Source: a virus. Taken from it: a stretch of DNA of 23,203 nt. Below, piece by piece: positions 2,569 to 16,523 of this stretch; positions within the stretch are counted from its first letter, which is position 1, and every line of letters starts with the position of its first letter. The translations under genes and the position numbers were made by a program. The notes under the pieces were generated by a model that was not told the origin of the DNA, made no database searches, and worked only from the letters and a program-made list of their open reading frames with translations. The stretch spans positions 1-23,203 of the IMG/VR virus record IMGVR_UViG_3300010885_050987. One strand, written 5' to 3'.

Positions 2569-3150
2569 ATGAAGAAAGTATTATTAATATCAGTACTGTT
2601 TATTGCAGGTTGTACTGTATACACTGAAAAACAATCTGAAGCTTTAAGTCAAAATGCATATGCAACGAATGATTCATTAAATAAGGCAAGAGTAGATCTT
2701 GCCTATTACTACTCTGATCAGACAACACGATTGGTTAAGATACCTAAGAAGAGAATTAACATTCAATCTATATATGAAACAGGTGTAGTTGTAAAGGGTA
2801 CAAAGACAGGACCAGGTACAAGAGTCGTTATTGTACCTGATCAGTATAAGAATGATAAGATTGTTGTAGTTGGGTCAGCTGAATATCAAGAACTGTTAAA
2901 AACAAAAGCAATTGCACAGCAGTTAAAAAAGGACAATGAAAATATTCTTTTAGCAAAAACTAACACTGATAAAGAATTAGCAAAGCAGGCGGAAAACAAC
3001 AATAAGATGGTTATAGCTCTCAATACAATGCAAAAGCAACTTGTACAGAAGGACCTGGCTATTCTGTGGAGAAATATTATTATTATTAGCTTATTAAGTC
3101 TAATTGGTGGTTATATCTACTTAAGATTGAATAAGTTATTCTTTCTTTAG
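2569..3150 (+). CDS. Probable unimolecular spanin (outer-membrane lipoprotein with C-terminal membrane anchor)
   Basis: The N-terminus MKKVLLISVLFIAGC is a lipoprotein signal peptide with lipobox IAGC (Cys15). The +2 residue is Thr rather than Asp, so sorting to the outer membrane is expected. Residues about 20-100 form a mixed strand region, and about 105-165 are a Lys/Gln/Asn/Leu-rich probable coiled coil. Residues 169-185 form a single hydrophobic segment near the C-terminus, followed by a short basic tail. A protein tethered to the outer membrane by lipid at one end and to the inner membrane by a helix at the other is the architecture of a u-spanin (phage T1 gp11 type), which fuses the two membranes in the last step of lysis. 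At 193 aa it is longer than T1 gp11. The downstream membrane-protein and endolysin genes support the call. No strong ribosome-binding site is visible. Confidence 0.72.
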   Translation: MKKVLLISVLFIAGCTVYTEKQSEALSQNAYATNDSLNKARVDLAYYYSDQTTRLVKIPKKRINIQSIYETGVVVKGTKTGPGTRVVIVPDQYKNDKIVVVGSAEYQELLKTKAIAQQLKKDNENILLAKTNTDKELAKQAENNNKMVIALNTMQKQLVQKDLAILWRNIIIISLLSLIGGYIYLRLNKLFFL

Positions 3151-3170
3151 TAGAAATTCATGTATATATG

Positions 3171-3178
3171 ATTAAATA
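3171..3178 (+). promoter_or_regulatory. Late-promoter-like AT box ahead of the 42-aa gene
   Basis: ATTAAATA lies five bases before ATG 3184. It differs at two positions from the T4 late -10 consensus TATAAATA and has the same placement as the better matches in this window. Weak on its own; the repeated placement is the reason to record it. Confidence 0.25.
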
Positions 3179-3183
3179 TATAC

Positions 3184-3312
3184 ATGGATAAAATTATTAA
3201 AATCATTTCATCTGTAGCTAGTTCAGTTGCTGACTGGATTACCTCCAACCCTAAGACAGCTCTCGCCCTACTCTTGTTTATTGTAGGCTTCATTCTTGGA
3301 ACATTGTTCTAA
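3184..3312 (+). CDS. Short single-span membrane protein, 42 aa (holin/lysis-accessory candidate)
   Basis: A complete 43-codon frame runs from ATG 3184 to TAA 3312. Residues 1-19 (MDKIIKIISSVASSVADWI) look like an amphipathic helix. After a short SNPK turn, residues about 26-42 are a clean hydrophobic membrane span ending GFILGTLF. There are no Cys residues and only three Lys. It lies 33 bases after the spanin-like gene and belongs to the lysis module by position. Small single-span proteins with an amphipathic helix include pinholins and holin regulators, but the sequence alone does not separate these from a simple membrane peptide. An AT-rich promoter-like box precedes it. Confidence 0.6.
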   Translation: MDKIIKIISSVASSVADWITSNPKTALALLLFIVGFILGTLF

Positions 3313-3336
3313 GAACTGTTTTCACCGATCTACTGC

Positions 3337-3438
3337 ATGTACGAGCACACACGCTCTACCTATCTCTATGTTTCAATGAATATCTATAGTCTTGTTTTAG
3401 GCTTTGGAATAGCTCAATGTTTGTTCAAGCCGATATAA
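3337..3438 (+). CDS. Possible 33-aa membrane micro-protein
   Basis: ATG 3337 opens a 33-codon frame ending in TAA at 3436-3438. The product starts MYEHTRSTYLYVSM and continues into a hydrophobic stretch, about residues 15-29 (NIYSLVLGFGIAQCL), ending FKPI. It fills the gap between the 42-aa membrane protein and the holin-like gene, and its stop overlaps the TATAAATA box. There is no Shine-Dalgarno sequence, but most neighbours lack one too. A frame this short can arise by chance; its membrane character and position in a lysis module are the only support. Confidence 0.35.
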   Translation: MYEHTRSTYLYVSMNIYSLVLGFGIAQCLFKPI

Positions 3439-3441
3439 ATA
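3434..3441 (+). promoter_or_regulatory. T4-late-type promoter box TATAAATA
   Basis: This is an exact match to the T4 late promoter -10 element TATAAATA, seven bases before ATG 3449 of the holin-like gene. In T4 such boxes are read by the phage sigma factor gp55 and need no -35 element. The predicted start of transcription would lie at or within a few bases of the start codon. It would drive the holin-like gene, the endolysin and the four-cysteine gene. Confidence 0.5.
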
Positions 3442-3448
3442 ATAATAG

Positions 3449-3802
3449 ATGAACAATCAGCGTAGAAGACTTTTTTCAAAAGAAAACTTCCTTGAAGGCA
3501 ATCGCCAGAAGTGGCTTATTGTGTTTTTAGGATTTGGTTTACTTATTTTAGTTGTTGATGCATTAAATGTCCTTAAAGACCCGACCCCATATCTCACCTT
3601 CCTCACGTTTTGTGCGGGGTCCTTCATAATCGGCTATTCAGGTACAGAAACCATGAAACTCTTTAGATCTGAATCATCTAATGTCAATGAAACAACCGAG
3701 CAAAGTGAAAATAAATACGTAAAGAAGGATATTTCTGTAGATCAACGAATTTTAACAAATAACGCTAAAGAAGATGGGTACAATATTGAAGAAAACGTAT
3801 AA
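3449..3802 (+). CDS. Two-helix membrane protein, holin-like, 117 aa
   Basis: After a basic N-terminus (MNNQRRRLFSK) there are two predicted membrane spans: residues 22-40 (starting WLIVFLGFGLLILVV) and 48-64 (YLTFLTFCAGSFIIGYSG). They are separated by a short DPTP turn. The C-terminal 50 residues are polar and acidic. Basic N-terminus, two spans and polar tail fit a class II type holin topology. Its stop overlaps the endolysin start by one base (TAATG), the usual holin-endolysin coupling. It has no enzymatic motif. Holin is the favoured reading because of context, but other small phage membrane proteins look similar. Expression would come from the TATAAATA box at 3434. Confidence 0.6.
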   Translation: MNNQRRRLFSKENFLEGNRQKWLIVFLGFGLLILVVDALNVLKDPTPYLTFLTFCAGSFIIGYSGTETMKLFRSESSNVNETTEQSENKYVKKDISVDQRILTNNAKEDGYNIEENV

Positions 3803-4413
3803 TGAAGACACCATCTCCCACAGCTTTAGACTTAATACTTGAATACGAAGTTGGTGGCGGGCAAAGCTATTATACACGGTATCTTTCACATCCAACCTGG
3901 CCTGGCGGTGCTTCTGGTACAACATTAGCTATCGGTGTTGATTGCGGGTACTACTCACAAGACGAGTTAGCAAAGATTTTTCATTTCTTACCTTTAGGTC
4001 AATTAGAAGCTATTAAGAACGCATCTGGTAAAACAAGTCAAGCTGGTAAAGCATATGTTCAGAAGATTAAACCACTCAATATCACTGTTAGCTGGGAACA
4101 AGCAGTAGAAATCTTCAATACATTAACCTGGCCTAAGTTTGCGAGGCTAGCAGAGAAGGCTTTTCCCGGGTTGGATCAACTTTGCGACAACGCTTATGGT
4201 GCATTAGTCTCGCTTGTCTTTAATAGAGGCACTGCAATGCAAGGCGATAGTAGATTAGAGATGAGAAATATTCGTTCTTTAGTTCAGAAGAAGGATTATA
4301 AGGGGATTGCTAAAGAACTAAGAAAAATGAAACGGATATGGGAAGGAAAAAACCTAGATGGCTTATTAGCCCGTAGAGAAGCTGAAGCTGCTTTGGTCGA
4401 AACTTGTATATGA
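3802..4413 (+). CDS. Endolysin, lysozyme/muramidase-like, 203 aa
   Basis: The N-terminal segment ALDLILEYEVGGG carries the acidic pair Glu14/Glu16, one of which is the likely catalytic glutamate. WPGGASGTTLAIGVDCGY (residues 33-50) corresponds to the glycine-rich beta region of phage lysozymes (T-I-G-x-G type). A helical domain follows, with NAYGALVSLVFNRG, the usual lysozyme-superfamily core, and an Arg-rich end GLLARREAEAAL. This resembles a lysozyme-like family in proteobacterial genomes and phages that carries the same WPGGASG motif. It would cut the glycan strands of peptidoglycan. It has no signal peptide or SAR segment, so release into the periplasm would need a holin, consistent with the gene directly upstream. 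The start overlaps the upstream stop by one base, and the stop overlaps the next ATG (ATGA). Confidence 0.8.
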   Translation: MKTPSPTALDLILEYEVGGGQSYYTRYLSHPTWPGGASGTTLAIGVDCGYYSQDELAKIFHFLPLGQLEAIKNASGKTSQAGKAYVQKIKPLNITVSWEQAVEIFNTLTWPKFARLAEKAFPGLDQLCDNAYGALVSLVFNRGTAMQGDSRLEMRNIRSLVQKKDYKGIAKELRKMKRIWEGKNLDGLLARREAEAALVETCI

Positions 4414-4613
4414 GCAATTTAATTAATGAGTTCTTTTCTCTGGATCAACCGTGTCCTGAGAAAGTACCTAACTGTGTAAATTTAAGAGAGCAGTATCTTA
4501 CAGAGTTACAAACAGCGCGTTCAGCTAGTTGCCAGCATTGCGATGAAACAAAGATAAAAGTTAAGTATATGGAAATTGTCTGGAACGCTTTTATAGATTC
4601 GCTTAATTTCTAA
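4410..4613 (+). CDS. Four-cysteine mini-protein, 67 aa, possible zinc ribbon
   Basis: I choose ATG 4410, which overlaps the endolysin stop as ATGA, over an in-frame TTG two codons earlier. Cysteines at residues 15, 22, 41 and 44 give C-x6-C-x18-C-x2-C, with CQHC as the second pair, so one zinc ion could be bound. Between the pairs is a helix (NLREQYLTELQTARSA), and the C-terminal KVKYMEIVWNAF is another. I do not recognise the family. Overlap with the endolysin indicates late co-expression, but nothing shows a lysis function. It converges tail-to-tail with the metallopeptidase-like gene, their last three bases overlapping. Confidence 0.65.
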   Translation: MSNLINEFFSLDQPCPEKVPNCVNLREQYLTELQTARSASCQHCDETKIKVKYMEIVWNAFIDSLNF

Positions 4614-5083
4614 ATTATCTTACTAAAGTATCTATAGTACTTGGTAAATTTAGTAAGATGGGTACGTGCAAACTGACGTGCATCGACTTCATACTCGTTC
4701 CTAAAGTAAGCATTAGTATTATGCTTTACGTCATCCTTATCGTATGTTAGTTTATTAGCACTTATCTTGTAAACTCTACTTTGCATCCAATGTCTAAACT
4801 CGTGTAGAAAATGATCGAAGAAAGCTAAACATTTCTTACGTCGAGATTTTGCTTTACTATCAGGTTCATCGCAAATGCAAATCTTGTCTGTTGTAAATGT
4901 ATAAAAACTTTCATCTGAACCATATTTTATCTGCAGTGTTAGTATTTTACTTTTTGTATGCGTTGTAGGTTCAAGCTCAGCAAAGAGTAAGCTCAGAGCT
5001 GCTTCCATAGCATATAGGTCGATCTTATTCTCCTCAAACCAAGGAATGGAGTTTGGTGTAAGCTTTAATTTAAATACGATCAT
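4610..5083 (-). CDS. Zincin-type metallopeptidase-like protein, 157 aa
   Basis: HEFRH at residues 94-98 is an HExxH zinc-metallopeptidase signature in a predicted helix (FFDHFLHEFRHWMQ). About 33 residues later NEYEVDARQFA supplies Glu132 in an ExxxxA-type helix, the usual third zinc ligand in gluzincin-like families. The N-terminal 65 residues are strand-rich. There is no signal peptide or membrane span, so it probably acts in the cytoplasm. Candidates include an ImmA/IrrE- or SprT-like role, or a phage-specific protease; no helix-turn-helix is visible. It is the only minus-strand gene between 1 and 7135, with its own divergent upstream region (5084-5125). The start ATG at 5083 has no good Shine-Dalgarno sequence. 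Confidence 0.65.
   Translation of the reverse strand: MIVFKLKLTPNSIPWFEENKIDLYAMEAALSLLFAELEPTTHTKSKILTLQIKYGSDESFYTFTTDKICICDEPDSKAKSRRKKCLAFFDHFLHEFRHWMQSRVYKISANKLTYDKDDVKHNTNAYFRNEYEVDARQFARTHLTKFTKYYRYFSKII
4617..4659. repeat. Perfect 11-bp inverted repeat at a convergent gene junction (possible terminator)
   Basis: ATCTTACTAAA at 4617-4627 is the exact reverse complement of TTTAGTAAGAT at 4649-4659, with a 21-base loop that has a further weak pairing (AGTA with TACT). It begins four bases after the stop of the four-cysteine gene and lies inside the 3' end of the metallopeptidase gene. There is no T-run on the plus side; the minus-side exit is AT-rich. It may end or block convergent transcription or stabilise mRNA ends. 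Confidence 0.4.
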
Positions 5084-6290: not shown

Positions 6291-6766
6291 AATTTATTGA
6301 TCAAATATTGTCGAATAGTCAAATTAAGGAAGCTAAGCTTTATGGTCCTTCAAAGAAAGCTGCAGAGCGACCAGAAACAGGTATTACAATACAAACTCCT
6401 GCTGCGTTTCATGTTATTAAGGATTGCGCTACTCTAGCCAATAGATATTTACCACATTTTGTCTTTGGACATTATGCAAATCCTTTTCAGGTATTAAAAG
6501 GTAAATTTACAAAAGCTGATATTGCTGAGTTTGTTACTGAAGCAAATTCTGATATTGTTATGCATCAACTTCTTGCTCTTGTTATTAGTAAAGTTGAAAG
6601 CACTATGCCTCAATTAAAGGCATCTATAACAAATGTCGATATCTCAGGTTTTAATAGTCCGTCAACAGATCCTTATGGTGATTATGAATCTTATTCATCT
6701 GCACCTGTTGTACAACAGCAAGATACTGTATCTATACTCTGTACAGCATTTGATGTAACTCAATAA
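6287..6766 (+). CDS. Hypothetical protein, 159 aa, co-translated with the nuclease
   Basis: This protein starts inside the nuclease stop (ATGA overlap), so the two are expressed together. The N-terminal 30 residues are Lys-rich (IKEAKLYGPSKKAAERPETG). Residues about 35-110 appear globular and helical, with a hydrophobic segment MHQLLALVISKV that is too short and polar at its borders to be a sure membrane span. The C-terminal 45 residues are Ser/Tyr/Gln-rich and probably disordered (SPSTDPYGDYESYSS). I recognise no motif. A partner or regulator of the nuclease is possible from position alone. Its stop lies inside the late-type box for the next gene. Confidence 0.65.
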   Translation: MKFIDQILSNSQIKEAKLYGPSKKAAERPETGITIQTPAAFHVIKDCATLANRYLPHFVFGHYANPFQVLKGKFTKADIAEFVTEANSDIVMHQLLALVISKVESTMPQLKASITNVDISGFNSPSTDPYGDYESYSSAPVVQQQDTVSILCTAFDVTQ

Positions 6767-6769
6767 ATA
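6762..6769 (+). promoter_or_regulatory. Late-promoter-like box AATAAATA ahead of the Dps-like gene
   Basis: AATAAATA matches seven of eight positions of the T4 late box and lies six bases before ATG 6776, overlapping the previous gene's stop codon. No Shine-Dalgarno sequence is present. Same geometry as 3434 and 16516. Confidence 0.35.
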
Positions 6770-16466: not shown

Positions 16467-16474
16467 TATTTATC
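16467..16474 (-). promoter_or_regulatory. Late-promoter-like box GATAAATA for the gp25 operon
   Basis: Read on the minus strand, GATAAATA matches seven of eight bases of the T4 late box and is followed after five bases by the GTG start of gp25. It lies in a 69-base divergent gap whose other side has AATAAATA on the plus strand, so the two late operons appear to be fired from back-to-back boxes. Confidence 0.4.
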
Positions 16475-16515: not shown

Positions 16516-16523
16516 AATAAATA
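16516..16523 (+). promoter_or_regulatory. Late-promoter-like box AATAAATA
   Basis: AATAAATA at seven bases before ATG 16531, the same distance as the exact TATAAATA box at 3434, and with the same following ATAATA. No Shine-Dalgarno sequence is present between box and start. Confidence 0.4.

Follow-up and report, generated by a model that had tools for sequence, protein, structure and literature searches.

The u-spanins were defined by the combination of a lipoprotein signal and a C-terminal membrane span in one protein, and none of the 58 published examples carries a periplasmic Cys (PMC6139136). Their prototype, gp11 of phage T1, is a 133-aa protein with beta sheets in its periplasmic part; its gene stands last in the lysis cassette, and its partner is a SAR endolysin. 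The two-component spanins, such as lambda Rz/Rz1 and T4 PseT.3/PseT.2, have a coiled-coil-type helical periplasmic part and an inner-membrane span. The same work described one-piece spanins as beta-rich and two-piece spanins as helical, likened them to the two classes of viral fusion proteins, and listed T4-like phages with two-piece spanins or with none. Among holins, class II proteins such as S21 have two membrane helices and N-terminal positive residues and are encoded directly before the endolysin. In the S21 pinholin, a glycine zipper of TMD2 takes part in pinhole formation, as cited in PMC9025707.

Here we analyze a 23 kb stretch of DNA from an uncultivated virus (IMG/VR record IMGVR_UViG_3300010885_050987), referred to as the window. 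It very probably holds the late lysis cassette, in complete form, of a T4-superfamily phage that infects Gram-negative hosts; within this cassette, a 193-aa protein would be the u-spanin and a 117-aa protein the holin. This reading is based on gene content, conservation, anchor signals, linkage, and protein-level selection on a micro-gene and on the tail of the holin. The five frames listed in an earlier sequence-only reading are all present with the exact sizes (193, 42, 33, 117, and 203 aa) and coordinates.

Genomic Setting and Conservation of the Cassette

The window codes for gp6-type and gp25-type baseplate wedge proteins, a gp44-type clamp loader, and a dUTPase. Its gp6, gp25, and gp44 relatives match phrog_219, phrog_261, and phrog_168, and tblastn also matches T4-like phages. 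Judged by these tail, clamp-loader, and dUTPase genes, the window is part of the genome of an uncultivated phage in the T4 superfamily, and the gp6, gp25, and gp44 relatives bear out an earlier description of the phage as T4-like.

Viral contigs were scanned twice, which yielded 130 loci; the distinct full-length lipoprotein members number 79. In 65 loci that differ in their lipoprotein sequence, lipoprotein and endolysin occur together with one to three small membrane genes in between. The order of lipoprotein, small tail-anchored protein, two-span protein, and endolysin recurs in dozens of divergent relatives, which argues that this arrangement is not due to chance. In each of 13 long contigs (119–203 kb, without a completeness estimate), a single PF00959 lysozyme adjoins the only full match to the lipoprotein. 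Such single, adjacent copies support the earlier proposal that the lysis pathway is gathered in one place, a clustering unlike that of T4 itself.

Among approximately 50,000 cultured phage records, neither the lipoprotein nor either of the two holin types described below has a meaningful relative. In a host search, bacterial genome contigs gave no relative of the 193-aa lipoprotein, while endolysin relatives in bacterial contigs (38–48%) were spread across many phyla and pinpointed no host.

Several neighboring genes travel with this region. An adenylylsulphate (APS) kinase gene at 1528–2085 (PF01583, E = 1e-49), which overlaps the next gene by 4 nt, also precedes the lysis module in several of the relatives. 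On the minus strand, 4610–5083 encodes a 157-aa protein with an HEFRH motif and zincin-like, sub-threshold Pfam matches, and its gene adjoins the lysis module in many close relatives. Homing endonuclease genes lie within the module in two relatives, L009 (3759–4451, GIY-YIG/NUMOD3) and L078, in the latter between holin and endolysin. In L103 (5733–6377), and at the same place in L106, L107, L111, L120, L124, and L126, a gene for a protein of 214–216 aa separates the holin from the small tail-anchored gene; the protein has its membrane span at the N-terminus, contains the conserved stretch RVWIAQFHNGGNFYPGNKSMKK, and belongs to no known family.

Anchor Signals of the 193-aa Lipoprotein

The first gene of the cassette (2569–3150, + strand) encodes a u-spanin-like lipoprotein of 193 aa with a signal peptide at residues 1–14, a lipobox Cys at position 15, a long predicted helix (113–187), a C-terminal span at about 163–181, and a positively charged tail. 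The lipobox reads IAGC with Thr at +2, and hydropathy places the span at 163–181, both in agreement with the lipobox and C-terminal span noticed earlier. All 79 distinct relatives keep the lipobox Cys, the +2 residue being Thr or Ala and never Asp. Negative charges are absent from their last 14 residues, which have one to three positive ones (79/79), and 77 of the 79 lack a periplasmic Cys. Every full-length member has the C-terminal hydropathy segment, and the helix of the AlphaFold model runs on through it. By two rules established for E. coli, those of +2 sorting and of positive-inside topology, these residues predict that the lipid anchors the protein in the outer membrane and that its C-terminal span lies in the inner membrane.

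A strict lipoprotein scan was passed in 40 of the 65 loci, the window included, and the failures stem from LNSC- or LPAC-like lipoboxes. Across all six frames of the window, the 193-aa frame is the only lipoprotein-like one, and no second such frame was found within 2.5 kb of the lipoprotein in any of the 65 loci. An o-spanin embedded inside the 193-aa gene was searched for and not found. Because the predicted features match those by which u-spanins were defined, topology and context make u-spanin the best provisional classification of the gene. The dual anchors, the missing Cys, and the lack of a nearby lipoprotein frame likewise favor the earlier choice of a u-spanin over a two-gene spanin.

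Searches of Pfam, PHROGs, and NCBIfam with the lipoprotein returned only sub-threshold noise. A PHROG "Rz-like spanin" match was rejected, as it spans only the signal peptide and the residues directly after it, and matches to EnvZ and cytochrome bd were sub-threshold.

Predicted Fold and Comparison with Known Spanins

An AlphaFold single-chain model of the 193-aa protein, built with 66 sequences, reached a mean pLDDT of 83 and showed helices at residues 24–38, 42–55, 104–109, and 113–187, hardly any strand, and a less ordered middle. The last helix enters the membrane, with block pLDDT values of mostly 82–94. Between residues 113 and 165, the hydrophobic columns of the alignment follow a heptad pattern exceeding that of shuffled columns (p = 0.006, best of seven phases). 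Foldseek gave a single match, an uncharacterized phage protein of the same family; searches of PDB and viral structures with the model found no characterized match and nothing solved. Neither by sequence nor by fold did the protein match a characterized spanin.

The sequence-only reading had likened this protein to u-spanins of the T1 type. The double anchoring stood, and the protein shares with T1 gp11 the lipoprotein signal and C-terminal span in one chain, the lack of a periplasmic Cys, and the placement in a lysis cassette. The kinship did not: hhalign against gp11 gave a probability of 0.6%, and the periplasmic part is predicted to be mainly helical, with a 75-residue helix, rather than beta. 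Given no detectable gp11 homology and a long helix in place of beta sheets, profile comparison and predicted structure indicate that the 193-aa protein is not T1-type. It is also longer than gp11 (193 versus 133 aa), its gene is the first rather than the last of its cassette, and it is paired with a canonical instead of a SAR endolysin.

In its helical periplasmic part of coiled-coil type, its inner-membrane span, and its expected end result, the protein resembles Rz/Rz1 and PseT.3/PseT.2. In contrast to these two-component systems, one polypeptide carries both anchors in reversed orientation (with the span at the C-terminus), disulfide-forming periplasmic Cys residues are absent, and there is no second lipoprotein gene nearby. 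As modeled, the family departs from the division into beta one-piece and helical two-piece spanins. With helices predicted instead of the sheets of the textbook example, the 193-aa protein may fuse membranes differently from the known one-piece type.

Endolysin and the Last Gene of the Run

The 203-aa endolysin (3802–4413, + strand) belongs to the GH24 phage lysozyme family, as indicated by PF00959, the alignment, and PDB lysozymes. The Pfam score of 42.4 bits against a cut-off of 22.3 and the PDB lysozymes confirm its earlier description as lysozyme-like. Glu-16, Thr-41, and Asp-47 are invariant in 35 aligned members and follow the E...T-x5-D order of pesticin. The PF00959 match and the invariant Glu, Thr, and Asp are features of GH24 lysozymes and pesticin-type muramidases alike, while likeness to the Pfam Pesticin model itself is only sub-threshold. 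Only two cultured-phage relatives were found, both distant, the closest being the endolysin of Xanthomonas phage AhaSv (43%). The N-terminus contains no hydrophobic segment of signal or SAR kind; with an endolysin of this sort, a hole big enough for the folded enzyme would be needed. Downstream, a 67-aa protein with four Cys is encoded at 4410–4613 (+ strand), its ATG and the endolysin stop overlapping by 4 nt. Its gene is the last of the operon-like run and is kept beside the endolysin in many relatives.

Holin Candidate and Its Conserved Tail

The gene before the endolysin (3449–3802, + strand) encodes a 117-aa holin candidate of what we call type A, with predicted helices at about 13–38 and 46–74 and a long unstructured tail ending in N-x-K-E-x-[DG]-Y. 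Its stop had been reported to overlap the endolysin start, which holds true by 1 nt only (TAATG). The two spans claimed with it fared less evenly: by hydropathy, one segment is strong and the other weak, the second span being borderline, while AlphaFold predicts two helices (13–38 and 46–74, pLDDT 72–79) at moderate to low confidence and is poor outside them. The candidate resembles class II holins such as S21 in its N-terminal positive residues and gene position and, as modeled, in a pair of membrane helices; it differs in having no family match and in its long C-terminal tail, which is acidic/polar and ends in the shared motif. No holin family in Pfam, PHROGs, or NCBIfam was matched above sub-threshold noise by the holin candidates, and a weak, likewise sub-threshold likeness to SLATT_5 2TM domains was seen. 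A search with Phage_holin_T matched neither relatives nor controls and is uninformative, so it is no evidence of absence.

Most relatives encode a type B protein in this position. The membrane parts of types A and B are unrelated by hhalign (probability 0.1%), whereas the last ~20 residues are common to both (probability 96.8%, E = 2.8e-10). The relaxed N-x-K-E-x-[DG]-Y motif stands at the C-terminus of 64 holin-position frames and of no other among 1741 frames. Within the tail, codon differences amount to 0.51 at the third position (near saturation) and 0.31 and 0.23 at positions 1 and 2, so that third positions vary about twice as often as second ones. The tail is also retained in L031 (4431–4880) and L072 (5835–6284), where another frame parts the holin from the endolysin. 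This codon-position pattern and the persistence in these two loci point to selection acting on the tail at the protein level. The N-x-K-E-x-D-Y tail may serve in docking.

Micro-Proteins between Lipoprotein and Holin Candidate

Directly 3' of the spanin gene, a 42-aa tail-anchored micro membrane protein with GxxxG at its very C-terminus is encoded at 3184–3312 (+ strand), a candidate antiholin or holin partner. Members of its family (34–75 aa) occupy this place in 47 of the 65 loci, and two further divergent ones are found in L039 and L045. In every member, the chain stops almost directly after a C-terminal membrane span; Gxxx[GAS] occurs within the last 12 residues in 47/47 and GxxxGxxxG in 16/47. 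As dN/dS of the micro-proteins was saturated, codon-position counts were used. Differences of 494/223/709 at the three positions identify the 42-aa frame as a genuine coding gene under purifying selection on its protein. A recognizable copy is missing from 16–18 of the 65 relatives, so the protein is probably an accessory regulator rather than the main hole former.

The 33-aa protein (3337–3438, + strand), a possible second small regulator with a hydrophobic YSLxLGFxxA core, has homologues in a subset of close relatives: 13 clear ones, window included, and three extra profile matches at the same place (L002, L003, and L078). Its core shows codon-position differences of 779/637/1002, which are coding-like, more weakly so than in the 42-aa gene. 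Both frames had been proposed as hydrophobic; both are coding and the 42-aa protein does end in a membrane span, but the span of the 33-aa protein is only borderline hydrophobic. Neither has a family in Pfam, PHROGs, or NCBIfam, where matches were sub-threshold noise. DUF883-type tail anchors, suspected as relatives of the 42-aa protein, were dismissed, as no such Pfam model matched. An intrinsic terminator-like site at 3293–3315 was not above chance.

Late Promoter Motif

The T4 late promoter core ATAAATA lies at 3435–3441 (+ strand), 7 nt before the start of the holin candidate. The window has eight copies against 17 by chance, a depletion, and four of the eight stand 6–14 nt before start codons (3435–3441, 6763–6769, 16467–16473 on the minus strand, and 16517–16523). 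In relatives, 91 copies lie upstream, of which 61 cluster within a band of five positions immediately ahead of the start, and the motif is found at 13 of 63 holin starts against 0.14 expected. Given this enrichment directly before starts, the lysis genes are probably late, with transcripts starting at or just before the start codon. Many genes of the phage group have ATAAATA 6–16 nt before their start codons. The pattern suggests that late transcripts of this group are leaderless or nearly so.

Alternative Explanations

The conserved tail could instead be a by-product of the overlapping endolysin translation start, with ordinary recombination at the junction producing the type A/B difference. 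In most loci the tail does lie directly before the endolysin start, and an SD-like core is found there at 35 of the 65 endolysin starts. However, differences at third codon positions approach saturation (0.51) but the residues are fixed (0.31/0.23 at positions 1/2), the tail stays in L031 and L072 despite the intervening frame, and the motif ends no other among the 1741 frames, which makes this explanation unlikely. A second alternative concerns the division of labor between the membrane proteins. The glycine spacing seen in all 47 members of the 42-aa family, together with the GxxxGxxxG of 16 of them and the S21 zipper noted above, would suit a pinholin-like hole former, leaving the 117-aa protein as antiholin or scaffold. 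A pinhole would not release an endolysin that lacks a SAR segment, however, and the 42-aa gene is missing from 16–18 of the 65 loci, whereas virtually every locus has a two-span protein ahead of the endolysin; we regard such an exchange of roles as distinctly unlikely.

For the 193-aa protein, a different task can be imagined, namely that of a dual-anchored envelope protein that acts, for example, in superinfection exclusion or in the control of envelope stress and is simply inherited along with the endolysin. The lack of homology to any characterized spanin would fit this, as would the N-terminal peptide past the lipid Cys, CTVYTEKQSEAL, which is unusually conserved for a spanin linker. Yet the lipoprotein is single in each long relative contig and always adjoins the lysozyme, its topology and absent cysteines fit u-spanins, and no alternative spanin candidate lies nearby. 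We give the envelope-protein role only a slight chance and retain the u-spanin assignment.

Proposed Lysis Pathway and Implications

We infer every functional step of the following scheme. Late in infection, the two-span 117-aa holin would accumulate in the inner membrane and make holes, through which the soluble GH24 endolysin could pass to the peptidoglycan and cut the cell wall. The 42-aa tail-anchored protein would most likely tune holin timing as an accessory regulator, and perhaps the 33-aa protein as well. The 193-aa spanin would bridge the envelope: the lipid at its N-terminus would tie it to the outer membrane and its C-terminal span to the inner one, and the two anchors would be joined by a helical periplasmic part whose long helix is coiled-coil-like. 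After peptidoglycan cleavage, it would draw both membranes close, leading to their fusion.

A broader proposal is offered tentatively, with more doubt than confidence. It holds that T4-superfamily phages possess a helical, coiled-coil u-spanin class breaking the published rule, and that in the same cassettes a conserved cytoplasmic tail, N-x-K-E-x-D-Y, has by exchange come to carry either of two unrelated holin membrane domains and docks a common partner that times lysis. Such an exchange of membrane domains on a constant tail would offer a handle on the control of lysis timing outside T4 itself. A large family of dual-anchored proteins that are helical in the periplasm would mean that the fold of a spanin is not set by its one-piece layout. 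The 79 distinct members may serve as a compact sequence set in which to study membrane fusion by spanins.
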